This document shows positions 13,878 to 28,994 of a stretch of DNA of 64,000 bases, in pieces. Position numbers and translations under genes: made by a program. How positions within the stretch are numbered: the first letter of the stretch is position 1; each line of letters begins with the position of its first letter. Below the pieces are notes generated by a model. It saw only the letters and a list, made by a program, of their open reading frames with translations. It did not search any database and was not told the origin of the DNA. The stretch is taken from the NCBI GenBank assembly GCA_002261195.1, contig MVBO01000007.1:227447-291446 (forward strand). The letters are read 5' to 3'. Origin of the DNA: Bifiguratus adelaidae (lineage: Eukaryota; Mucoromycota; Endogonomycetes; Endogonales).

Positions 13878-14253
13878 GATAGATCATTAACAGGTCTTTG
13901 TTTTGGCCATGTACTGATATACATTCTTGTCTAAGCGTCTCTTCCACTCACTTACTCACCCTTTAACCTCGCTGACATAGTGCAGGTGCTTGATCTCGTT
14001 AGTATGAGCACAAAACACCGCATTCCCTCTGCAAAAACAAGGCATCAGCATCGTGTCTTGCAATGTCCCACCATCACTCAAACGTCCTGTGTCATCAGTA
14101 GGAACAATTGGTACAATATATAAAAGCTGTTTCCGCATGCTTGCATTCAGTATCCCATGTCTCATCACTTGACCATGACCCCTCAATTGCCATCCAACAT
14201 CTCCCAATACTTACCTGCAAGAAAAAGAAGTGGCTTAATTAACGTTGATCCAA
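13878..14253. other. Intergenic between CWH41 and the CCDC137-like gene
   Basis: About 375 bases. A 251-nt frame open on the minus strand (14207-13956) has no recognisable motif and no good start context. TATATAAAA near 14117-14125 may be a core promoter element for the downstream gene. Nothing else was seen. Confidence 0.4.
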
Positions 14254-15188
14254 ATGCCGCACAAAAGACGAAAGCTCAGTGAGAGAAAGGCAGCAAGAGA
14301 GGAAACGTAAGGTTGAATGCTTGTTGAATGATAAAGACTTAGGGATATATGCGCAGGGATCTGGCTCCTGTGAGTGTCAGTCGAGATGCTCCTCGAGGAT
14401 TCCGAGACTTGATGCAGCTACAAACCTTGGCTGAAAAGAAGCAGCAGCAAGCCAAGCCAAAGCCTAAGCCTAGTAAGCAAGAGGTAAGCGTGCCTAGAGA
14501 CACGACCGAGAAGGAGGGCTGACAGGCTGGCATAGACCAAACTTGAAATAAGGCCTGGCGAGCGCATGAAAGACTTTCATCGGTAGATAGCTCTTTCATT
14601 CAATGTCATATGTATGTTCATGCTTGTTGTTCTAGCCGTGTTGACGAGGAAATGAAAGACCGCATGCTTCACTCTTTGCAAAGGAGCAAGACGACGAGTA
14701 TTCGCAAGAAGAAGAACAGAGAACAACGTAAACTGAAGCAAAAGGCCAAAATGATGGGAGATTTGGAAGAGCTGGAAGCCAAGGACTTTGATCAGTTGCA
14801 GGACAAGGTCAAGTTTGGTGAGGTGGCTCAAGCACCACCGACGTTGACGAAAATACCCAGGAAGATTGGCGGTGGACAAAACAAGGTAAGGTCGAGGGAA
14901 GGCATTGACTTGGCCAATCAGTATCGCTCATTCTGTATCGTTTCGTAGGCGGCATTAGCAGCCTTGTTGGCAAAGGGAGAAAAAGAAAAGACGGAGGATG
15001 GCGGCAATGAATCGTCCGAGGACGAAAATATGAAGGAATTCAAGGCTTTGAACCGGCGAAAGCTCAGAAATATGGACCCAGCGCAAAAGCGTGTATTGGA
15101 AGCGCAACGCGAGAAGGCTGTTGCATTTTATCGGGCGCAAAAGGCAAAGCGATTGACTGCGGCTGGGAAAACACCATTCGGCGTATAA
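14254..15188 (+). CDS. CCDC137-like basic nucleolar protein
   Basis: Exons 14254-14306, 14357-14483, 14536-14582, 14636-14885 and 14949-15188 give 238 residues. The start is ATG 14254, whose exon MPHKRRKLSERKAAREE joins in phase to TDLAPVSVSRDAPRGF. The protein is very lysine/arginine-rich, with a conserved-looking block LEIRPGERMKDFHRRVDEEM, a coiled, charged middle (RKKKNREQRKLKQKAKMM), and a C-terminus of repeated charged helices. This order resembles coiled-coil protein CCDC137 and its fungal relatives, which are nucleolar and probably linked to ribosome assembly. The assignment is from pattern memory. The coding call is firm because all five exons keep phase; the name is moderate. Confidence 0.75.
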
Positions 15189-15378
15189 TAGATTATGTAC
15201 AACCTGTAAACCTCTCAACTAACACCATTCAAGTGTATCATATTCACCATCACGCACACTTCCTTTTCAGAAGACCAGGTCTCGATCGCTTATCAAAAGG
15301 CATTTAATCTACTCTTCCAATGAGATGGATATTGGTCTAGTTCATTGTGAGGATTCGTGGATTAGATATATATAGTAC

Positions 15379-18300
15379 TTAATCAGCTTCCGCATCGTCC
15401 TCTACAACGCAAATGATCAGTGGCGAGCTTTGACGCATGTAAACCTTGATGACACCTACCAGCAATGATGCGCAGAAACACTTCTTCAAGGGTGGTTTGC
15501 GAGAGACCCCAGTCAGTGATACCATACTCCTTCTTGTGAGCCTCAATCTCTCGGAAGAGCATAGGAATCAAGCCCTTTTGCGCCTCGAATTCGTAGGACA
15601 CATGAATCACAAAGCTGTCGAGCTTCGTCGCACTTGATGGCAACAAGCTCTCAATGTAGTTGGAGACTCGTTCGGTATCTTCTGGCTTGCACGTGAACTC
15701 GAGCTTGAATCCACGGCCGTATACTTCCTTCAGTCGTAATTGGTTGCCCAAACATCTGAAGGTACCTTTGGCCATGATACCGATACGATGGCATAGAACT
15801 TCCGCTTCTTCCATGGAATGCGTGGTCAATATGAGAGTTCTTCCTTGCTTGGCTTCGTTGATGATGGTCCAAATGAGACGTCGAACTTCCGGATCCAAAC
15901 CGGTCTAGAAAAACGCGAATCAGAAAGCGTTCAAACCGTTGTCGGCAAACTTACGGTTGGCTCATCCAAGAAAACAACGCCAGGATCGCCAATGAGGGAA
16001 ATAGCAATACTCAAACGTCGCTTTTCACCACCCGACAAACCCTTCGATAGTCGATTGCGGAATGGTTCAAGGCTCACCATCCTCAAGGACCGCATCATGG
16101 CAGCATTTTCTTCTTTTGGTGGAATACCTTTTAGACGCGCGTAAAAAAGGAGATGTTCTCCCACCGTAAGGTCATCCCACAGGATGTCATGTTGTGGACA
16201 AACGCCAATTGAACGGTACACGTCCGACATTTGCGTCCTGGTGTCGTAGCCGGCAAGAATGGCTTCTCCGCTCGTGGGCTTATAAAGACCGGTGAGTATG
16301 GAGATCAACGTAGTCTTGCCGGCACCGTTAGGTCCAAGCAGACCGAAAATGATGTTCGGCTCCACGGCAAAGGACATGTCTTTCACCGCCAACTTATTTC
16401 CGGCGCCGTAGAGCTTTCGCATACGTTTCATGACCAGGGGCGATGACGGGTCATAGTCACCGCGCAAAACACGAGCTCGCTCTGCTTTGACGTCGGCATC
16501 CTCGAACTGTGTCTCCTCTGGGTCAACGTCGTTAGCAAGCGGGCCATTTTCCAACGTGACATCGCGAATCGCGTGACGTTCTTGTCGTCGCTGAAAGAAT
16601 TCCGTCACCGGAAAGTGCCATGGCTTGCGCACACCATATTGAGAAGGAAGGACGCTGCTAAGATAAGCGGCTATGATCAAGTAGACAACTGCCTCTACCG
16701 CAAGATAAATGAGGGCGCGAAGCACTTCATCGTCACCACGGAGATCAGAGATGCGGTAGGGTATGGGAGCTTTCCCGATGGTTCGTCGAGAGAGCAAGCT
16801 AAGTGCGCGATAGAAGGCAAAGGGTGGCCATATAAAGTATCCCTTCGGAGCTTGATTCGTGAAAAGAAAGTCAAGAGCCGCATTGATAATGACACCTCCA
16901 AGGACGATCAAGAAGGTAACTACCAAGGCTGTTCGATTCTTATTGAAAAAGGCAGCGAAAAAGAAGGCGAGAGCATTCTGCGTGAATCCCCAGATGAAGA
17001 ACAAGAGGAGATAGACGCCTGGCTGAGTCCGCGTGAATAGTTCCATCTGGCAAGCAAAGCCAGCAATGATGAAAACGAGCGTGGAAAGAACGTGAAGAGA
17101 GTAAAAGTGGAGGTAGTGGGTCATGTAATAGGTTCGCACTTTCAGTCCATTCTAGATAATGTTGGTCAAGGCGTCCAAAAGCCATGTTCACTTACCATTT
17201 TCATCATCACCAAGATCCGCTCTTCCTTCTCGCGTACAAGAATAATAACAAAGATGGGCAACAAGAATGACACACCAAATGGATAGAGCACGCGTCCAGC
17301 CAGGGTGGCAATGGGTATATTGACCTGGGAAGAATAGTAATCCGGCATAACACGGTAACCATGGGTGATGGTGGCATTGGCCAAGGCGCTTGCATTGGAT
17401 GCGCGCATGAAGGCGTTGGAGAGCATACTTTGCTGTACCATTTGTCTGAAGCCCCTCGATGGGAATGAAGCTGCATTTGCAAGTCGCGAGTCCGTACCGT
17501 ACTGCAGAGTGTAATTCCATGTCTTTGCGTCAGTGTTGATGGCGTCAAATATCAAGGCGCCCCAGGGCATTTCGGTCACAATGCTTGCAATATTTGCATA
17601 AAATTCAAGGGTGACTTCGGGAGGAGGGTTGGAATCCAACAAGGCGGACTTGTTGACAGTGGAGAGTTGGTTGATGGTGTCTCGAATCTTGGCCGTCAGG
17701 TACGAAGTAGTGTTGGAACGGGGCTCGGAGGAATCAATTTTGATGAAATAAGGCACCGGCTGGAAATCGGAAAGAACATATCGTTGAGTGGGATCGGAGG
17801 TGGCATTGTTGATGGTGATGTTGGCGTAGAGATTGAGGTCGATCGAACCGAGTAATCCAGTGGAAGTGGTGTCGTTCGGCCAAGGAAAGCCGGCCTGGCC
17901 AGGTTGAGGTCCAGAGTAGTTTGCATTTTGGCCAATAGGTAGGTAAGGTAAGAACTGCGCAATTTGCGCGTACTGTGGGTTGGCACCAATGATAGCCGAT
18001 GGATTAAGTGCGGCGGACGCATTGCCTCCAGTAGCAGCTAAGGGATTGCCGCCTGCTGAGCCGCCGGATAGACCCCCGGCTAATGTGGCAACGCCTTGAA
18101 TACCGCCCGGAATAGAGACGCTAGGCAGCTGTGGTTTTGCACCAGAATTCACGCCAGTATTATCCCACACATAGGCCCATGGCGATGTTTGCGATTGCGA
18201 AAGGTCGATAGGGTAGGCGAGATTTTGAACGGAAAACCAGCCTCCTTGTGGGTCAGGCTGGAATGTACTATACCCAGAAATCAGCATTCAAGCCCACGAA

Positions 18301-19110
18301 CTCTTATCAAGAAACTTAACCTATCCCTCCGGAAAGCATTGGCAATCTGTGGGTTATTCTCATATGGCGCGCGATATTCGTAATCGTGCTCAAACCACCA
18401 GACACAGCCTGCAGAAATTTGTGGTCCAAGCGTTTGTGGAATGACCTTGTAGTTGGTGAAATTGATGTACTTAGCGTCGTTGGGTGCCTTTGGATACTGT
18501 GAAATAGGTACACCAGGGAGCGTAGAGTTATCCGTAACGCCCAAAGCGATGCCCTGAGCGTTGGTGGCGTTCTGGTCGGAACACGTAATAAAAACTGCCA
18601 TGACATCAGTTGCACAATCTAAACCAACAAAGCACTACTCACCGCTTGGCGGACTAGTATTGACAACGAGCATCGTGATGATAAAGCCGAGCAACCAGCT
18701 GACAACGACCATCAACAAGGGGCACAAGGCCACACAGCAGATATTGACCACATACTGCCGCTTCTGATAAGCAAGCGTTTTACGTGTCTATGCAAAGACA
18801 TCCAGCAAGATAGGCATCGTCAGTACAAGGCTTGCTCTACTGGCCAAGCACTTACCAACGCACGTATCTGATAACTCTTTACCGGTCGAGGCGACTTGTC
18901 CGCCAAGACCGTCTCTGTGACTGGAAATGTACTTTCACTTCCTTTCCAATCCACTCCATTGGCGTCTTTGCTATGGCCATGCTTGTCTGAGTCCCCATCT
19001 GACATTCGCTCATCGATAGTCGTCGACCCTGGAGTCGATATCACCGAGGCGCTTGTGGGTGCTCTACTATCATTTTCATTCACCGTCTCAATGACATCAC
19101 GGCCATCCAT
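15379..19110 (-). CDS. ABC transporter, ABCA (ABC1) family, half-size
   Basis: Exons, 5' to 3': 19110-18856, 18787-18643, 18594-18321, 18267-17196, 17151-15955, 15904-15460 and 15401-15379, for 1136 residues. ABCA transporters move or flip lipids across membranes. Residues 1-85 are a Ser/Thr/Asp-rich cytosolic tail. A first membrane helix (ICCVALCPLLMVVVSWLLGF) is followed by a large extracytosolic domain of roughly 400 residues, with several N-x-S/T sites. Five more hydrophobic helices lie within about 565-740. One nucleotide-binding domain then shows Walker A GPNGAGKT (near 855), Q-loop CPQHDILWDD, signature LSGGEKRR, Walker B VVFLDEPT and H-loop THSMEEAE. There is a single TMD-NBD unit, unlike animal full-length ABCA. 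Substrate is unknown. Confidence 0.9.
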
Positions 19111-19355
19111 GGCGTATCAGCCTAGACCGTTGTTGAGAGCGGTAACTGCAAGAAAGCGAGGGAGGAAAGGGGCAGAGAACACAAGACGAACGCTTCGATC
19201 GTTGGCAAAGAATTCGTTTCATTCCACGCTGCGATTTCCTTTTTGGGAAGCCACGTTTTGAGATTGTTCTTTGATCTCGCGCGTCAAAGGTTGGCTTCTA
19301 GAGAGCCATTGCGCGCTACTCAATGTCCCTATAGCACAGTGTACATGGACGAGGA

Positions 19356-19364
19356 ATGACTCAT
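19356..19364. promoter_or_regulatory. Gcn4/CPC1-type box ATGACTCAT
   Basis: A perfect 9-bp palindrome matching the Gcn4/AP-1 consensus lies 126 nt upstream of the rvt start codon. A half CRE (GACGTCA, 19373-19379 area) follows closely. In yeasts and Neurospora this sequence is bound by the amino-acid-starvation activator Gcn4/CPC1. Its use here is inferred from sequence only. Confidence 0.55.
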
Positions 19365-19430
19365 GTCCAACGACGTCATAGAATGGGGTGGCGCAGTTGG
19401 ACTGCATGTGCCGCAGCCACGGCGCCAAGC

Positions 19431-19436
19431 TATAAA
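19431..19436 (+). promoter_or_regulatory. TATA box of rvt
   Basis: TATAAA lies 54 nt before the ATG at 19490, downstream of the Gcn4-type box. The spacing is reasonable for a core promoter, and no other TATA-like element lies in the gap between the ABCA gene and rvt (19111-19489). The rest of that 379-nt gap holds no coding signal. Confidence 0.5.
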
Positions 19437-19489
19437 TTGATTGCGCGGATGATCTTGCACGCTCTCATCCTTGCTCTTGCCTACCGATC

Positions 19490-22021
19490 ATGGAGACTAC
19501 ACTCAACCAGCTCTACTACGAGGTCACCACCGTCAAGATCAATGAGTTGCAAAGTCGAAAGGCGCTTGTGCAAGATCACTATGACCAGGTACTGCGTGAT
19601 GTGGCGGCTGCGCACAACCTTCACGCAAAGGTTCGTCTTCTCTATGAAGGCATTCATGGGTCTCCTTTAGTAGAAGATCGACTTTCCGTGGACCGGGCTG
19701 GCTCATTCGTTAAGAGCATACATCGTGATCCATCCATAAGCCCAGCTCTCCTTGAGCACTGGCAAAATGTACTGCTTGATCAGGTGCATCACTCCATGGA
19801 AAAGTGCAGATATTCCTGCCTGCTTGGTTTCATCCTGCAGGAAGAGCTATCGACTTGCAAATCGCCTTTGTTTGAGGCCTCAGACTTTCTCATGGTCAAG
19901 AACGACGCTGCCGGTCCAGCCAATGAACGCGAGAAGACCATTCAAGAACTCGAAAAGCGTGTGTTTCGTGCTGGAACAGTTGACACTCGAGCTTTCCGTG
20001 AATACTTGAATCGTTTGTTTGATATGAAGGATCCCAATGTCAAGTCCGCTGTCAACGACTCTCGGCTTGGCACCAAAAACTTCTGTGATCATCTGCTTAT
20101 GGACACCATCGAACCTAAGGAGGTGAAACTATGCATCGAGGCTTTGCTCGCCTCTAATCTCATTGATGGTCCAAAGAAAGAGGCATTGCAACAGCTCAAA
20201 GACAATCCACAGTATCTGCAAGATTTGGGTACATTGCTCACGAATCGGTTGCATGCCATCGATCAATGGAGGTGGCCTGCAGGAGATGTCTATGTCGATG
20301 TAAGAAGGTCGATTCAGGGAAGATACCGAGCATTTTTGGAGGAGGAAGTTAGTACAGCTCTCTTACTGCAATACGTTGGTGTCAGACTTTCGGTGCATAT
20401 CCGATACAATCTGACGCTCCTATATGAGAGCAATGTTTGGAAGCTCAACGACATGGCTAATGAAGGAATTGAAGAGATACGACGAAGCACACACAAAGGG
20501 GCACTGTTGTCCATGCTTCCATCTACTTTTGCAGCGCAAGGCACCGCGGCCGGTGTATACGATGAAGCTTCGGACTCTGATTGCTTTTGTACCACCAAAC
20601 GAGAGAACAATGCTGTGGACGTCAAGAACAAGATCATACATGTGCTTTCTACCGAAGCACAGCTGTCCAAGGCTATGCACCCAGCTGAACTCTTCACGGT
20701 TGTCCGTACCGATCTCGAATGGTTTGGACCATCGATACAACATCATGCAATCAAGGTTCTGCTTGAGTTTCTTGGTGTTCCCGACTTGTGGGTTAACTTT
20801 ATGATGCGTTTTCTGCAAGTGCCTATGCGTTTTACTCGTGACGCAGCTGAAGAGCCCAAGGTTCGCAAATGCGGAGTACCTATTTCCCATCCCTTGTCTA
20901 CGCTGTGCGGCGAGATTCTCTTGTTCTTTATGGAGACCGCCGTCAACCAGCAAACAGGCTTGTTGCTTTCTCGGGTTCACGACGACTTTTGGTTCTGGCA
21001 TCACAAGCAAGATAAAGTCATTAAAGCATGGCAAATCATGCAGGAGTACGCGACATTGGTGGGTCTCAAGTTCAACGACAAGAAGTCTGGTTCTGCTGTC
21101 ATTACAGCGGATGCAGCTCCCGGAGTTCAGGCGCCTTTTGGACCGGAAGGCTTGCCTCAGAATACGGTGCGATGGGGCTCGCTTGTTTTGGCAACCGATG
21201 GATTGTTTCTGATTGACAAGGAGGAGATCAAGCCTCGCCTGGAAGAGATGAAGAACCGCCTGGCATCTGCAAAGACAATCATGTCTTGGATCAATATCTA
21301 CAACAAGTTCATGGCATTTTTCATTCGGGGATGTGGTAAAACAGCCAAGGTCCTCGGTGAACAGCACATAATCAAGGTTGCTGATACGTTAGCATGGATT
21401 CAAAGACAAGTCTTTGCAGCACATGATGGGCAAGTACTGGCAGCCCTGCAATCTCAATTTCCTCTGCTACAACAAGAATCCATCATGGATATGTGGGCAT
21501 TTTGGCCGCTTGTGGCAGGAGGTCTCGGTATTCACAATCCGTTCTTGGATATCAACGCCATGCAAGACGCCGTCGGGCCTGATGAGATCATTGACTTTAC
21601 GGACCTTCCACAAGGAGACGAACATGAATGGAAAGCCAATGAAGAACGCAAAGCCAACGCCATTAAGGACGGTAAAGGATATTCATGGGAAGCGGCATAC
21701 AAGCCAGAAAGCTTTGATCAGTATTGCGAGAAACGGGAGAAATCAGATTCTAACAGATGGTACAAAAGATACAAGGACTTGACGAGCCTCGTGGAGCCGA
21801 ACATACCCAAGACCATTGCCAAGGATGCGCGTGACCAATTGGATGCGGCTCTAGGAAAGAGAAATACGTCTACCGCGACTTATGCACAACGCGTCATTGG
21901 CTATTACGAGAATCAGCTCGGTCGCACTCTTGGGACTTTGCAGCTGATTGATTTGAGTCTGATACCCAAAACACTCGTCGACTCCCTTAGAAAAGCTAAG
22001 ATAGATTGGGATGACGAGTAG
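19490..22021 (+). CDS. rvt: Cellular reverse transcriptase-related protein of the rvt class
   Basis: A single 843-residue frame starts at ATG 19490. The N-terminal 300 residues are mostly helical, with predicted coiled segments. The polymerase core follows: motif A is RTDLEWFGPSI (aspartate 408), motif B is CGVPISHPLSTLCGEIL, motif C is RVHDDFWFW (Asp 498 and 499, with His in place of the usual Tyr), and motif D/E is GLKFNDKKSGS and VRWGSLVL. There is no endonuclease, RNase H, gag-like or zinc-knuckle domain, no LTR, no poly(A) tail and no target duplication. It sits neatly between two single-copy genes. This combination fits rvt, the domesticated reverse-transcriptase gene class known from fungi, plants, protists, rotifers and some bacteria; Neurospora RVT polymerises NTPs in vitro. 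The cellular role is unknown. Confidence 0.85.
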   Translation: METTLNQLYYEVTTVKINELQSRKALVQDHYDQVLRDVAAAHNLHAKVRLLYEGIHGSPLVEDRLSVDRAGSFVKSIHRDPSISPALLEHWQNVLLDQVHHSMEKCRYSCLLGFILQEELSTCKSPLFEASDFLMVKNDAAGPANEREKTIQELEKRVFRAGTVDTRAFREYLNRLFDMKDPNVKSAVNDSRLGTKNFCDHLLMDTIEPKEVKLCIEALLASNLIDGPKKEALQQLKDNPQYLQDLGTLLTNRLHAIDQWRWPAGDVYVDVRRSIQGRYRAFLEEEVSTALLLQYVGVRLSVHIRYNLTLLYESNVWKLNDMANEGIEEIRRSTHKGALLSMLPSTFAAQGTAAGVYDEASDSDCFCTTKRENNAVDVKNKIIHVLSTEAQLSKAMHPAELFTVVRTDLEWFGPSIQHHAIKVLLEFLGVPDLWVNFMMRFLQVPMRFTRDAAEEPKVRKCGVPISHPLSTLCGEILLFFMETAVNQQTGLLLSRVHDDFWFWHHKQDKVIKAWQIMQEYATLVGLKFNDKKSGSAVITADAAPGVQAPFGPEGLPQNTVRWGSLVLATDGLFLIDKEEIKPRLEEMKNRLASAKTIMSWINIYNKFMAFFIRGCGKTAKVLGEQHIIKVADTLAWIQRQVFAAHDGQVLAALQSQFPLLQQESIMDMWAFWPLVAGGLGIHNPFLDINAMQDAVGPDEIIDFTDLPQGDEHEWKANEERKANAIKDGKGYSWEAAYKPESFDQYCEKREKSDSNRWYKRYKDLTSLVEPNIPKTIAKDARDQLDAALGKRNTSTATYAQRVIGYYENQLGRTLGTLQLIDLSLIPKTLVDSLRKAKIDWDDE

Positions 22022-22110
22022 AAAAGTATACCCTGCATATTGTACATTATTATTGTATTTACATGTATGTAATAGCACATTGAGAAGCAAATAGAATCGC
22101 AGCGGAAGAT

Positions 22111-24819
22111 CTACTGGCTGCTTTCGCTCAATGGAATATAGCCTTGACCTCGCCGCTGGTACCAAAGGTATCCATACCATCCGAGTCCGACAGTAAAGCC
22201 GATGATGCCAACAACAATAAGCATCCATCCCCACCATGGGACACCACCCACTTGGCCGTCGGCATATCCACGCGGAATTAGAACGCGATTGATGGACAAG
22301 ACTCCGCCACCACATTGGCCAACATCACACGACACCTTGCCGAAGCCAAGAACAAGTGCATGTCCATTCTCATCGTCACCATGCCCTTTCACTTGAATGG
22401 CTTGGTTGGTCGGAGAATCATCCCAATTGAGGAGCTGTAGCAAGTCTGTACGCTTTTCCGGGTTGGTCAAAAGTGTTGGCAGGGATGAACGGTCCGTTGC
22501 ATCACTGTTCTTGTCTGAGCTGTCGAAGATGCCCTTGGGGATGATATGCATCATCGCGATCTTTGCTAGCTTTTCACGATCATCATATAAAGTGGTAAGA
22601 TTGAATTTAGAGAAGGCTCTGTCTGTCGGCGCTAGGATGGTATAGTCACTTCGAGAAGTCAGGAGATGAGTCAAATTCGTCAGGCGCAAGATGTTCATGA
22701 AGGTGTTGGCGTGAATACCCTTGAGCAAGTGCTGAGCAGTCAGGTTGAGACGAGGAGGCAATTGGACGCGATCCACAATTTGAGCGGAACCGGTGGACAA
22801 AAGTAAATCCGACTGGATAACATTACCGTAGACTTGCGACTCGCCATCAAATATGTTTTGATCACCTCCTTGTTGACTGCCTTGAATCCGCAGCATACTT
22901 GTGCGACCCTTTTGATCGGTCGGTTCATCATTCCAGACTTGTAATTGCTCACCGTCGAGTAAAGTTTTGAAGGTGCGATGAATGCCTCCCTTTAACTCGG
23001 TGTCGTAAATGACCTCGTCCACAACGTGATATAATAGGACCTTTTGCAGATCTCGACGAGCATCGGCCGACTGTGAGATGAGATACTGTCCGATAAGACC
23101 AAGCCGGGTGAAGGCATCATTGGTCGGGACAAACACGGTCGTTCCGGCTGTGCGTTTCAGCTTGGTTTGCAAGCCAGCGGCATAGGTCGTGGCGACAAAG
23201 GTTGATAAGGTCAAATTCTTGACCAAGGTCTCCAGCAGATCTCCCGGCGGGCGTAAGACTTGTGAAAGTGTATAGACGACATGAAAATCCAGCTCAACGG
23301 GGTCTCCAACCACCCCAGCGTCGTTGAACATGACATCCTTCCCTTTCCAGGATGACGGCAAAGGTGACGAATCACGGTCCAGAGATACTCGCACGCGTTG
23401 CGATTGTCCTTTAAGGGAATCGCCAGCAAGCACCGTCTTCCACAAGTCACCATCGCGAATGGACTTGCGCGGGTTCCGTCCTTGAACGATATGGTATTGT
23501 AAGAACGCCTTCATAGCGGGTGAGTGGGGATAGGGTAGTTCTTCAACCTCCAAAGCTTCATTTCTCGGCACAAGAAAGGTATATTGCGTAGTGTCCGACT
23601 CGTTGCCGCGTATCGGAGCATCCAAATATTCTCCGAGTCCGTTATCGTCACATAGTTGAACAAACATAGTTGCGTTCAGACCGTGCAAATACATCCGGAC
23701 AGTCCACTGAAGCAGGTCGTCGGGAAGGAGCAGAGTTGGAAGCGACTGAATTGCGCCGTTGGCTGCCAGAATGTCTGTTTGCTCTTCCTCCAACTGGTGT
23801 GAGTCAACTGTCATGTAATATTCTGGACTGATTTCCACATTCAGAGAGTGAGCCGACAATGTTGGCACTAGCGATGGGTAAATGACACATATCAAGGTAA
23901 ATGCTCAATGACTTGCCTTGTAATTTGCCACTTGGACTTTCTCCCGCGAACCAAACGCCTTCGGCAATATGATGTTTGAGGACTTTTTCGAGGTCTCGAA
24001 CACCAGCATCGCTTCCCAGGTACGCCATCTCTATCGCGTTAAATCTTTTGCTGAATCCATTCGAATGTGGCGCAAAAATTGTATAAGGCCGAGTCATATT
24101 ATCGGCCGGCGGGTATGCAGCAAAGAGATGTGTCAAATTGGCGCGCTCCAAGAACGACATGAAGAGACTGTGTTGAGGATAAGATGGTAATGTAGACACT
24201 GCAAACAGTCAGCATATCCAGCGGTTTATCAAGGACTTGCCATGCACTCACATAAATCTGCGGGAGGTCGCATGATCTGATCCACCACATGAATCATCCC
24301 ATTGCTCGCCTTTTGGTCCTTGTTGATGATCTGCGCACCGCCAACGTATGTTCGACCTCTGCCCTTTCGTTTATTACCTTCTCGATCGACCCTGGCTCTC
24401 TGGCCAAGGCGAGGTTCAGCCTCTGATGCACTTTCATTCGAACTGGGCGACCCAAGATAGCCATCCTTGATCAAGGCTGTTTCCAACACCATTCTATCCT
24501 CGAAATCGTCACTCTTATATTCAACCGGCAACATGTGGTATAGCAAGATATCTCTAGTGATAGGATCCTTGGCCGCTTTGAAGGCTTCGTTCGTCGGAGC
24601 AAACAATGTGGCAACTTTAAGCGAATTGATATAGGGTATGAGTTCGGTCTGCTGAAGTGAACGCAATAAAGAGTTGAATTGTTCGTCGGAGGAGAGGACA
24701 TCGATGATATTGGTCGACCCTTGCGCAGTTCCAACCAGCAGTAGGCAAAGCAAGCAAACAAAGAGCGAAAGCAACGCAGGTTTGTCCCTGCGCCGAAACG
24801 CAAGGCTACATCTCACCAT
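22111..24819 (-). CDS. Membrane protein with five FAS1 domains (Fsc1-like)
   Basis: Exons 24819-24252, 24198-23917 and 23867-22111 encode 868 residues. The N-terminus carries a signal peptide (LLSLFVCLLCLLLVGTAQG). Five fasciclin modules follow, each with a TVFAPTNxAF-like motif: ATLFAPTNEAF, YTIFAPHSNGF, YTFLVPRNEAL, TTVFVPTNDAF and YTILAPTDRAF. One C-terminal helix (WGWMLIVVGIIGFTVGLGWY) leaves a 20-residue cytosolic tail. The architecture matches S. pombe Fsc1, a vacuole-membrane protein needed for autophagosome-vacuole fusion, so a vacuolar role is plausible. Intron 2 (23868-23916) starts with GC (AAG|GCAAGT); phase and the conserved sequence across the join support it. The gene is convergent with rvt, with 89 nt between stops. 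Confidence 0.85.
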
Positions 24820-24945
24820 GTCTACTTAAAGTGTCCAATGAGGACTTGTCAGACGTCTATGGAGAAGAGAAGTGGGCTCTAGTGTTGAGTGCAAAAGCAA
24901 ATGAGGAGCAAGCTTAAGCGGAGAGTCCAAGACGTCAGTCAAACC

Positions 24946-24967
24946 GCACGTGACACAGATCACGTGA
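24946..24967. promoter_or_regulatory. Two CACGTG E-boxes between the FAS1 gene and ferroportin
   Basis: CACGTG occurs at 24947-24952 and again inside the palindrome TCACGTGA at 24960-24967, in the 223-nt gap between divergent genes. Such boxes bind bHLH factors of the Cbf1/Pho4 or MiT type. A CRE-like GACGTCA lies just upstream at about 24931-24937. Functional use is inferred. Confidence 0.45.
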
Positions 24968-25042
24968 ACGTTCTTCGTTCCTTCGCAAGCTTCGGTTCTT
25001 CGCAAATATGGACCAAATCGTTACCTTGGAGGCCCATCGACC

Positions 25043-26673
25043 ATGGAGATCGAGCAGTTGGAGGAGGGCCACGCAGCAGAGCAACTAGAAAGCTCACCCG
25101 AGGCTGTCGCCAGCGACTTTGCAGAGTATAAAAAGTTGTACGTCTCTCACTTCTTTCGAACTTGGGGAGACCGGCTTTTCGAGTTTGCAGCCTCACTCTT
25201 CATCATCGACATTTTTCAGACAACACTACTTGAATCTTCATTATATGGCCTGCTGACCACTGCTTTTGCGATTATATTCAGCAATGGGATTGGTAAATGG
25301 GTGGACAAGGTGCCAAGGCTGCACGTTGTAACGTTTCTGATCCCGACACAAAAACTCCCTATCATCCTCAGCCATGTTGGATTCTGGGCATTGTTGACTT
25401 ACTACACCCCGGCTGTGGCACACGGCCAGAAGAGCACTCCTGCTTTGGTCATCTTTGCTTTCATTATCCTTTTAGGCGGAATTTACCAGGTTGCGACGGT
25501 CGGCATGAACATTGCTATCGAGCGCGACTGGGTGGTCATCATCGCCGGACAAAATTCTACCAGCTTGACAAGTAGGTGATCCGCTGTCTAACCTGTATGC
25601 CTGCTGATACAGGCCTTGCCGCAGAATTGAATGCCACATTGCGACGCATCGATCTCTTTTGCAAAATGGTGGCTCCTCTCTTTGTTGCGCTCTTGACTTC
25701 GACCGCATCTACACTCGTGGCTGTTTACTTTATCGGCGCATGGAATGTGGTCAGCATGTTTATTGAATACTTTTGCATCTACCGCGTCTATCAGGCCGTG
25801 CCTGCGTTGAAGTTACCAAAGCGACCTAAAGAAATCTCCAATGACCGCCAGTCGTTAGAATTCCTGAAAGCAAGATGGCAAGATGTGAATAAATGCCTCC
25901 AGAGTCCGATTCTTTTAGGTGAGTTTTCAACTGTGCACATTATGTTCGATCCAAGTTGTTCAACGATTATAGCCTCCATTAGCTACTCGATGCTCTATCT
26001 CACTGTGTTGAGCATGGGCGGTACAATGATTGCCTACCTGGTTGCCAAAGATTATTCAACTGCCATAGTCTCTGCCATTCGTGCTGTTTGCGTCGTAGGT
26101 AAGCGAAGTGAAAACCGGGGAGAGGGCCTCAATACATGCTAATCGAGACAAAAGCTGGTCTCGCCGCGACCTTCATTGGACCGTTTCTCACATCGCGGTT
26201 GGGACTTATTCGATGCGGATTATGGTCTGTATGGTCCCAGGTTTTCTGCCTCGTACCGGTCGTCATTGCCTTTTACATCAATAGCGGTAAAGGTGTTGTA
26301 CCGACCGTGCTGCTTTTCGTGGGCATGGCGTTGAGCAGGATAGGTCTATGGTCCTTTGACCTGGCAGAAACACAAATTATCCAGGAAGGCGTGCCTAGCG
26401 AGGAAGTTGGTCTGATAAACGGCTTCCAGTTTTCTTTATGCAATGTATTTGGTGAGTAGGCCCTATGCGACGTGAGGTAGACTAACCCGGTCCACAGATA
26501 TGCTTGGTTACGCAACGACCATTATCTGGTCCAATCCTGACTCATTTTACATTCCGGCAACTATATCGTTCGGCATGGTCGGAGGAGCAGCCGTCGTCTT
26601 CTCGGCCTATTGCAAACAGACGCGCGGCCATCTTCTTCATTTCCGCAAACTCGTAGACGTCAAGATGCATTAA
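25043..26673 (+). CDS. Ferroportin-like iron exporter (SLC40 family)
   Basis: Exons 25043-25571, 25613-25918, 25973-26098, 26155-26451 and 26498-26673 give 477 residues with about ten hydrophobic helices. Ferroportin exports Fe2+ from the cytosol, across the plasma or vacuolar membrane in fungi and plants. Diagnostic blocks are the first helix SHFFRTWGDRLFEFAASLF, the loop GIGKWVDKVPRL, and NATLRRIDLFCKMVAPL. The helix SYSMLYLTVLSMGGTMIAYL and RIGLWSFDLAETQIIQE follow. The third intron's frame (25919-25972) is stop-free and in phase, so retention would be tolerated. The gene shares its promoter region with the divergent FAS1 gene. Confidence 0.88.
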
Positions 26674-26821
26674 TGACTCAAAGGCGTAGACAATACCCCG
26701 TAGAATAATCTCAGCCAATCATCGTCGATTTGCTGGATTGCAAATGGATAGTGGGGGCGCGTTCATCTTTCAGCATTATATATATGGAATACTGGTGCAT
26801 TGTATACCTATACCCCTTAAT

Positions 26822-28994
26822 ATGATTTCGGAAACCATGCAGTTGGTCAGAGAGTCGATGCGCGTTCTTGAGGAACAAGCGCCAGACCTATGGCGCCTTG
26901 ACCGCATCGTCAAAGAGGTATTGAACAAGCTTCGTAACTATAAGGGTTTCGCGGGACTTTCCCTAGGCTTCTTGCTCGTCTTCTATGGCGCTTATCGGCA
27001 CATGATGATTCCGGCCAAGAAGCTCAGGCACATCAAGAGCGTAGACGCTTTTGGCTTCTGGAAGGCTGTGCTGACAGGTATGCCCCTGGACGAGAGAAAA
27101 CGTCGATTCTCGATCCCAGTACTAGGGTCGACAGGTATCTATATTGTGAGTGAGTGGGGCAAAGCATATGACAGGACACCATTGCTGATTTTCTCTGTGT
27201 CAGATGCCCGACCAGTTTGGATTTGGTGTGCGCGTTGCGGAACCGGTCGCCTTCAAGACTGTGCTGTTGAAGACAAGTACGTCAATCTTCCCATTCGATC
27301 TCCTTTGCCGGGTCCTCGAATTAACATAGATGCGTAGATGTCTACCCAAAGGCAACTTTCCTCGGCGAGCGTGATGATGGCAGTTTGATTGCCAAATGGT
27401 TTGGTGGAGCCTCTATAGCTACCGCCAACGGTGACGTTTGGAAGCGACATCGTCGCACCGCCAATCCCGGTAAGCAATTTGATCCACATATGTTGCACTG
27501 CGTGCAAGGCGTATAGTGACGTGGAGTAATCCAGCCTTCCATCGATCTGTCCCCGTCAAACTCTTTGGTCGACAAATGCAGGATGTTATTACAAACATTG
27601 AAGAAAGCAATTACACGGTTGACGTTGCCAATCTGTTCAAGCGGTTTACGCTTGATGTCATTGGTGAGGCAGGTTTTGGTTTTAACTTTCAGGTTAGTCG
27701 CATGCTCCTCTAAATCGATGGGCAATCTAAGAGCAACGACCAAAGGCAATCAAGGAGCCCAACAACTCGTGGATCAATGCCTACAACACAGTGATGGAGA
27801 ACATCTTCGACCCTGCAAACTTCTTGTTCCCGTGGTTGGACCAATTGTTGTACAAAATATCGGCCAAACGACGTCGGATCCACGGAGCAGTCGATACGAT
27901 GAACGACCTATTCAACAAAGTCATAGATAATAAGCGCAAGGTGATACAGGAACAAGGTCTTGGCGATGAAGATGCCGACAGCGAGAAAGACTTGTTGACG
28001 ATGATGCTTGAGGCCAATAACGATGAGCATGACCATGGCCTTCGACTGAATGACAAAGAGCTACGAGTAAGCGCAGGCTTTTCAGTTTCTGATCATTCAT
28101 TCACGACGCTGTGCACAGAGCAATGTTGTCTTGTTCTTCCTGGCGGGTCACGGTACGTAAAGGACGAGAATTGGCTTGTTTGCAACATGTTTGCTGATAC
28201 AGTTCCTACCTTGCCATGACAGACACCACGAGTAACGGTCAGCATACACCAACCGTGTTTTTGGAGTCACACTAACATTTGTGCTCTGCAGCCTTGACCT
28301 ATGCTCTCTATTACATGGCTATCTATCCGGTGAGCGCTCACGGATTGTTCAATGCATTTGTACATGCGGCTAATACTATAACCGTTCTGTAGGAAATACA
28401 AGAGCGAGCGCGCAAGGAAGCACTTTCAGTACTCGGCGACGAAGCCCACGACGTCATTCCCATCATTGATCAAGTCAAGTCATCATTCCCGTATATATCT
28501 CAAGTCATTTCCGAAACATTGCGTATCTGTCCACCAGCCCCGGACACCTTACCTCGCGACACCAAAGAGGATCTCATCATTAACAATACACTTATTCCCA
28601 AAGGTGCCTTTGTGACCTTGGATATTTTTTCGTTACATCACAATCCAGCGGTATGGGACGATCCAGAGCGGTTTGACCCCGATCGATTTGCACCTGACGG
28701 AGAATATGATCAAAAACACGCAGGTGATGGGTACATGTACGCGCCCTTTGGTCAAGGGTCGCGTATCTGCATGGGCATGCAATTCTCGTTGGCGGAACAG
28801 CGTGTGGCATTGGCCATGCTATGTAAGGGCAGCCAGGACATCGTGAGAGAGTCAATAACACTTTGTGTGTAGTGCGAAAGTTTACGTTTACCTTGTCGCC
28901 TGACAACATCCACAAAGATGGTCTCAAATTGCACTCGCTAGTCGGGGTGATGATTGTGGATAACATGAAGCTTGACTTCAAGCCAAGGTATTAG
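26822..28994 (+). CDS. Cytochrome P450 monooxygenase
   Basis: Ten exons: 26822-27145, 27204-27276, 27338-27469, 27535-27692, 27746-28066, 28119-28152, 28223-28237 (15 nt), 28292-28329, 28393-28822 and 28873-28994. The product has 548 residues. A single N-terminal membrane helix (FAGLSLGFLLVFYGAYRHM) anchors it to the ER. P450 landmarks are WKRHRRTANPAFH (C-helix), AGHDTTSNAL (I-helix oxygen-activation motif, spread over three exons), ETLRICPP (K-helix ExxR), PERFDPDRF and the haem-binding FGQGSRICMG with the axial cysteine. Similarity is to CYP4-like fatty-acid or alkane hydroxylases, but no subfamily or substrate can be fixed. All splice phases agree. Confidence 0.93.

Follow-up and report, generated by a model that had tools for sequence, protein, structure and literature searches.

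Genes of the rvt group are described in a 2017 review as the only reverse transcriptases (RTs) present in both bacteria and eukaryotes, as being of obscure origin, and as marked by a loop named 2a (PMC5718144). The RVT protein of Neurospora is reported to be dispensable for growth, to be strongly induced upon inhibition of protein synthesis and to display terminal transferase activity in vitro (PMC3520738). A further account presents rvt catalysis as a non-templated polymerization that requires intact catalytic residues, and rvt genes as a help to bacteria, fungi and rotifers through starvation, antibiotic agents and like stresses (PMC10680173). RTs of class 1 of the UG/Abi group are described as homo-oligomers that work without a template and are primed by protein (PMC13275509), or as template-independent with protein priming in some of them (PMC13174585), and DRT9 as an enzyme of protein-primed DNA synthesis that uses a noncoding RNA template and yields poly-dA (PMC12483538). 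Here, an rvt gene of the fungus Bifiguratus adelaidae was analyzed, which occupies positions 19490–22021 of the plus strand of a stretch of 64,000 nucleotides (hereafter the window; C251:227447-291446, contig MVBO01000007.1) in a genome of 18.63 Mb and 286 contigs. The analysis identifies it as a host-owned polymerase of RT fold that belongs to the described but poorly understood rvt family, rather than as a new system.

Family membership and conserved residues

Of 7,989 candidates scored in a protein search, 23 had E ≤ 0.001, counting the window protein itself, and repeating the search with an alignment brought no additional protein. The nearest relatives, aligning over the full length at 43–47% identity, were four Umbelopsis proteins and two others, followed at 25–32% identity by proteins of Coniferiporia (Hymenochaetales), bdelloid rotifers and ascomycetes; end-to-end matches to Umbelopsis and rotifer RVT-like proteins reached E values down to 1e-245. 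The Philodina roseola protein G3KGX1, annotated as 'Reverse transcriptase-like protein', matched with 98% query coverage and 29–30% identity (E 4.1e-102). A profile built from 16 rows of the 23-row alignment (A1), from which the window protein and its six closest relatives had been removed, recognized the window protein with 554 bits over residues 4–841. A preliminary description of this DNA, made from its letters alone, had placed the gene in the rvt class, which these end-to-end matches bear out together with a clade shared with Umbelopsis proteins (100/100; see below). Eukaryotic RVTs, such as those of Philodina and of fungi, have in common with the window protein the same full-length homology, catalytic residues, loop 2a and C-terminal tyrosines, and likewise one copy found and no reported mobile-element domains.

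With the relative P0011 as query, a region search of 518 candidates yielded 139 proteins at E ≤ 1. Source names, where given among the 120 of the 139 matches that were listed, were all eukaryotic, and the matches listed included many Agaricomycetes, ascomycetes, the rotifer Adineta and the moss Ceratodon. Because many Agaricomycetes and ascomycetes are among the matches listed, the rvt family is, as judged by sequence matches, broad in fungi, and the earlier characterization of rvt genes as 'rare' has to be abandoned in view of named matches across Agaricomycetes, ascomycetes, rotifers and a moss. Two agaric proteins, P0066 and P0080 (1502 and 1439 amino acids, respectively), carry an RVT-like region joined to other Pfam domains, including PF17832 and PF01253; perhaps these joins are gene-model fusions.

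Conservation was assessed in 104 full-length relatives, namely those of 800–990 amino acids among 138 proteins, window protein included. The catalytic motifs named in the preliminary description are present and, like all other parts of the protein discussed here, are encoded on the plus strand. In the alignment, RT motif 3/A spans residues 402–415 (FTVVRTDLEWFGPS; 20693–20734), with the catalytic D408 and with G413 at position D+5, and RT motif C spans residues 494–504 (20969–21001), with an HDD triplet that contains D498 and D499. Residues D408, W411–S415, D498 and D499 are invariant across A1, and among the full-length relatives D498/D499 were found in 104 of 104, H497 and D408 in 101 each, and G413 in 100. 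The HDD triplet had been regarded as unusual; the frequency of H497 makes it the family norm. In common RTs the D+5 place of motif A is usually an aromatic steric gate, and by counting it is F in the group II RT. Glycine at this place in the rvt family may loosen sugar selection, which would fit the use of nucleoside triphosphates, reportedly polymerized in the study of Neurospora RVT.

Three of the 104 relatives, P0131, P0127 (Clarireedia) and P0132 (Rutstroemia), carry E in place of D408, a natural active-site variant in which W411, F412 and G413 are changed too. As catalysis may thus be dispensable in places, the window protein could be a kept but catalytically idle scaffold. This is quite improbable, since D408, D498 and D499 are all retained in the window protein, its palm and fingers are the most constrained parts, and the catalytic residues are reported as necessary for stress relief (PMC10680173).

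Ahead of motif A, the fingers β-hairpin (residues 267–284, 20288–20341; alignment and model) contains the conserved residues R272, G277 and R280, and loop 2a, with limits drawn from the model, extends over residues 314–374 (20429–20611) between RT motifs 2 and 3. From R280 to D408 there are 127 residues, versus about 62 in the group II RT as counted by eye. The 61 residues of loop 2a compare with 51–58 in six Umbelopsis-type rows and with 64–172 (median 77) in 97 others, so that these other relatives, outside the Umbelopsis group, have a longer loop than the window protein. The N-terminal region, residues 1–254 (19490–20251), is predicted to form a long helix (4–40) and a helical domain. An N-terminal coiled coil reportedly serves multimer formation, according to a 2018 rvt paper; helix 4–40 is predicted here, heptad periodicity was not above that of permutations, and a coiled coil is unsupported by this test. 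At the other end, the thumb and C-terminal helical domain (residues 577–843, 21218–22018; from the model) includes Y798 (21881–21883), a candidate primer residue conserved in 99 of the 104 full-length relatives, and a second conserved tyrosine, Y806 (21905–21907), found in 80 of them. In rvt proteins, C-terminal tyrosines are reported to be needed for priming, and multimers to form through coiled coils.

Distinction from mobile elements, inheritance and constraint

The coding sequence is complete, with 843 codons and a stop, from ATG to TAG, and no intron was seen. At the local composition, 843 open codons would arise by chance with a probability of about 5e-20, and none of 60 base-shuffled windows had an open frame of more than 251 codons, versus 861 from stop to stop for the rvt frame. 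G+C contents at codon positions 1 (0.568) and 3 (0.515) lay between the extremes of seven other frames in the window, and that at position 2 (0.363) was the lowest among the eight frames compared. An alignment of 65 of the 104 full-length relatives (A2) revealed no in-frame insertion suggestive of a retained intron, the only residues for which over 90% of the other 64 rows have no counterpart being 140–143, 551, 753 and 843. This agrees with the intronless frame of 843 residues first described.

Features of mobile elements had been noted as missing, and the scans found none. The sole Pfam match of the protein at E ≤ 10 was RVT_1 (3.1e-4; 20.9 bits, under the cut-off of 29.6), and that scan reported no domain of RNase H, endonuclease, gag or maturase type. 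The longest run of A within the 89 bases 3' of the stop was of four, with no poly(A) tract seen there, and among the direct repeats found none resembled a flanking target-site duplication. Both the protein query and the bacterial UG37 model (see below) located the rvt gene as the only place in the genome, in accordance with the single copy claimed earlier; the general RVT_1 model found 20 places, the rvt gene among them. In Fomitiporia mediterranea three RVT proteins are listed (P0025, P0026 and P0030), and a single copy may not be universal; for each of the three the longest contig has the same length.

These observations bear on the notion that the frame is an RT remnant or a captured retroelement piece, of long interspersed nuclear element (LINE), long terminal repeat (LTR) or group II intron type, left intact by chance. 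The protein does have an RT fold, for which the RTs of R2 and LINE-1 ORF2p are the best and longest matches, and a group II RT model matched weakly (E 4e-4; 19.6 bits against a cut-off of 300). However, the full A1 profile scored the reference sequences low (UG17 RT 26.1, group II RT 13.6, LTR −2.1 and LINE −3.0 bits), and in a small tree of the RT core eight RVT rows split with a support of 0.937 from four reference RTs, namely the LINE and LTR pieces of the same genome, a group II RT and a Rhodococcus UG17 RT, of which the LTR piece lacked motif A and aligned poorly. Unlike R2 and LINE-1, moreover, the rvt protein has no reported endonuclease and one copy found, and the LINE piece of its own genome did not group with it by sequence. 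With one copy, no element-type domains and neither poly(A) nor target-site duplication seen, a retroelement origin of this kind is very improbable. Grouping with LINE, LTR or group II RTs had been named beforehand as the outcome that would speak against the rvt class, and the RT-core split gave the opposite one.

A telomerase-like or telomerase-replacing enzyme, suggested by the RT fold and by weak telomerase matches, deserves as little credence. A telomerase RNA-binding domain lies elsewhere in the genome (C273:64109-64658; best piece 53 bits, cut-off 25), the window protein does not match that domain, and the closer end of the contig is some 89 kb away from the rvt gene. The telomerase RNA-binding domain at C273 consists of three pieces, one with two internal stops, which would fit an intron-bearing gene.

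The RVT tree was built from 40 hand-picked members of the 104 full-length relatives and rooted at the midpoint, so that its direction is not given. In it, the window protein clusters with six Umbelopsis-type rows in a clade that has 100/100 support and a long stem, a placement consistent, at the level of sequence, with vertical inheritance of the gene. Elsewhere in the same midpoint-rooted tree, rotifer rows (P0010 and P0014 among those cited) group with Hymenochaetales (100/100), and moss rows (including P0065 and P0078) with the truffle Choiromyces (100/98); both placements are as would be expected from horizontal transfer out of fungi. The rvt genes are reported to be often subject to horizontal transfer (PMC10680173).

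Identity to the Umbelopsis isabellina protein was 58.9% in the palm and 59.3% in the fingers, 33.3% in loop 2a and 31.7% in the N-terminus. The mean identity of the window protein to nine outgroup rows was 28.3%, close to the 28.5–29.6% of four Umbelopsis rows, and because of this similarity there is no clear sign of decay at the protein level. Of 157 positions that are conserved in 80% or more of its relatives, the window protein departs at 44, with the commonest residue of the Umbelopsis-type rows at 18 of these; two departures, Y607F and H583R, fall at near-universal places. Taken as a whole, the interpretation given in the preliminary description stood as regards the rvt class, the one copy, the catalytic residues and the separation from transposon RTs, and failed as regards the 'unusual' HDD and the rarity of the family.

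Kinship with bacterial reverse transcriptase classes

The window protein matched the PADLOC model RT_UG37 (PDLC03776; 778 positions, filed under DRT) with an E value of 2.8e-62, the next class being UG4 with 4.9e-7. All 23 rows of A1 were matched by this model, and nine of them scanned singly gave E values between 1.6e-49 and 7.6e-90. In seven of the nine, one stretch of UG37 spanned the core and all or part of the N-terminal domain; in the window protein the RT core and the N-terminal domain are matched by two separate stretches of UG37, that of the N-terminal domain at profile 7–269 with E 4.3e-12. As controls, the LINE and LTR pieces of the same genome did not match UG37 at E ≤ 0.01, UG37 was not within the best 25 of 82 families for the group II RT, and the Rhodococcus UG17 RT matched it at just 3.7e-8; of 14 prokaryote genomes taken as controls, three or four gave hits with UG37 at E ≤ 1, which might happen with any RT model. 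Because of these matches and controls, it is strongly supported that, at the profile level, UG37 and RVT resemble a single family, the comparison being with a model of bacterial proteins and all trees being free of bacterial UG37 sequences. A literature search on UG37 and reverse transcriptase returned no title on a UG37–RVT kinship.

Scans of bacterial genome contigs and of viral contigs confirmed no relatives, and none was found in a phage scan. Of the plasmid scans, one gave a UG17-type RT, another nothing, and a third a group II RT together with three non-RT places (E 2 to 8). The UG17 RT (1.7e-115), on a Rhodococcus rhodochrous plasmid (L025:4656-6020), lies near a gene for an Abi family protein.

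Likeness between rvt and UG37 resides in the RT core and the N-terminal domain, as seen at the profile level, and the PADLOC label DRT does not by itself show anti-phage activity. It is a possible, still tentative, extension that eukaryotic rvt genes, this one included, constitute a eukaryotic branch of the bacterial UG/Abi superfamily of defense-type RTs (class UG37) and share the mode of action of AbiK and the other class 1 DRTs, with a halt of translation setting off untemplated synthesis that is primed by protein. Both the comparison with class 1 enzymes and a defense or shut-off role that rvt might have are inferred.

Among solved proteins, the best match by sequence in the PDB was DRT9 (9ioa, 9nlv and others), found with the A1 profile over motifs B to D (E 5.2e-6). 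DRT9 resembles rvt around these motifs, and its own synthesis is protein-primed, but just about 90 residues align, and DRT9 requires a noncoding RNA template and makes poly-dA. Its use of a noncoding RNA raises the chief alternative to untemplated synthesis, by which the rvt protein would polymerize RNA or DNA on an RNA template, together with an RNA partner yet to be discovered, as in the cases of DRT2, DRT9 and DRT10. A glycine (G413) in place of the steric gate could let ribonucleotides in, and the spacer upstream of the gene folds slightly better than shuffles (z −1.77, with 6 of 100 shuffles as good). However, the structure of the downstream spacer is ordinary (z 0.58), no Rfam match at gathering score was obtained within 14000–28000, and rvt catalysis is reported to be non-templated (PMC10680173), all of which makes the alternative unlikely. 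A local noncoding RNA partner was sought by the Rfam scan of that interval and by the folding of both spacers, and none was found.

Candidate mechanism, surroundings and significance

Protein-primed untemplated synthesis under translation stress is held to be the likeliest mechanism, with a probability of about 0.6, because the window gene keeps the parts needed and because of the reported biochemistry of rvt and class 1 enzymes. The conserved C-terminal tyrosines fit this mechanism, and DRT9, the defense RT nearest by sequence among solved structures, is itself protein-primed. By this mechanism, the RVT protein would form homomultimers and start synthesis on its own C-terminal tyrosine, Y798 or perhaps Y806; nucleotides would be added without a nucleic-acid template through D408, D498 and D499 and two metal ions, and the product would remain tied to the protein. 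Amino-acid starvation or a block of translation would induce the enzyme. Multimer formation, priming, template independence and the stress role are carried over from the rvt family and would apply to the window protein by analogy.

A candidate regulatory element occurs in the upstream spacer of the gene, ATGACTCAT at 19356–19364 (+), which we take to be a Gcn4/CPC1-type bZIP site. The motif ATGASTCAT, searched for after the sequence had been read, occurs at this place only in the window (0.87 expected by chance) and 124 times in the genome; within the window the wider TGACTCA shows no enrichment (10 occurrences versus 12.05 expected). None of four amino-acid genes serving as positive controls, HIS1, HIS3, HIS4-like and ARG1, had a clear upstream site: the motif was absent from the ARG1 and HIS1 loci and from the 600 bases 5' of the first in-frame ATG of HIS4-like, and HIS3 had one site seven bases before its match, possibly intragenic. 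Near nine sites, from 15 loci taken from the 124, ten frames were scanned, four with a Pfam match and none for amino-acid biosynthesis. A starvation-response reading of the 19356 site would suit the proposed mechanism, but the positive controls did not back it and the site is a lead only.

The genes on either side are separate from rvt. Upstream, ABC transporter domains were matched by Pfam at 15931–17139 (−), and a second frame at 17166–18287 (−) had no match in the Pfam scan. The nearest listed upstream minus-strand frame, at 18820–19110 and tentatively taken to be the first exon of the transporter gene, is separated from the rvt frame by 379 bp. Downstream, two frames with the fasciclin (FAS1) domain were matched by Pfam on the minus strand; the one at 22111–23895 is convergent with rvt and lies 89 bp from the rvt frame.

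By its kinship with Umbelopsis, the Bifiguratus gene adds an rvt lineage outside mushrooms and ascomycetes, in the group with the shortest loop 2a. The link to UG37 ties the rvt family to defense-associated RTs, several of them with recently described mechanisms (PMC12483538, PMC13275509, PMC13174585). From this link and the family kinship concrete predictions therefore follow, namely that the protein would prime itself on Y798 and that an adduct would be found on the protein. If the rvt genes of eukaryotes do represent a branch of the UG/Abi superfamily, fungi may still carry a working polymerase of abortive-infection style.
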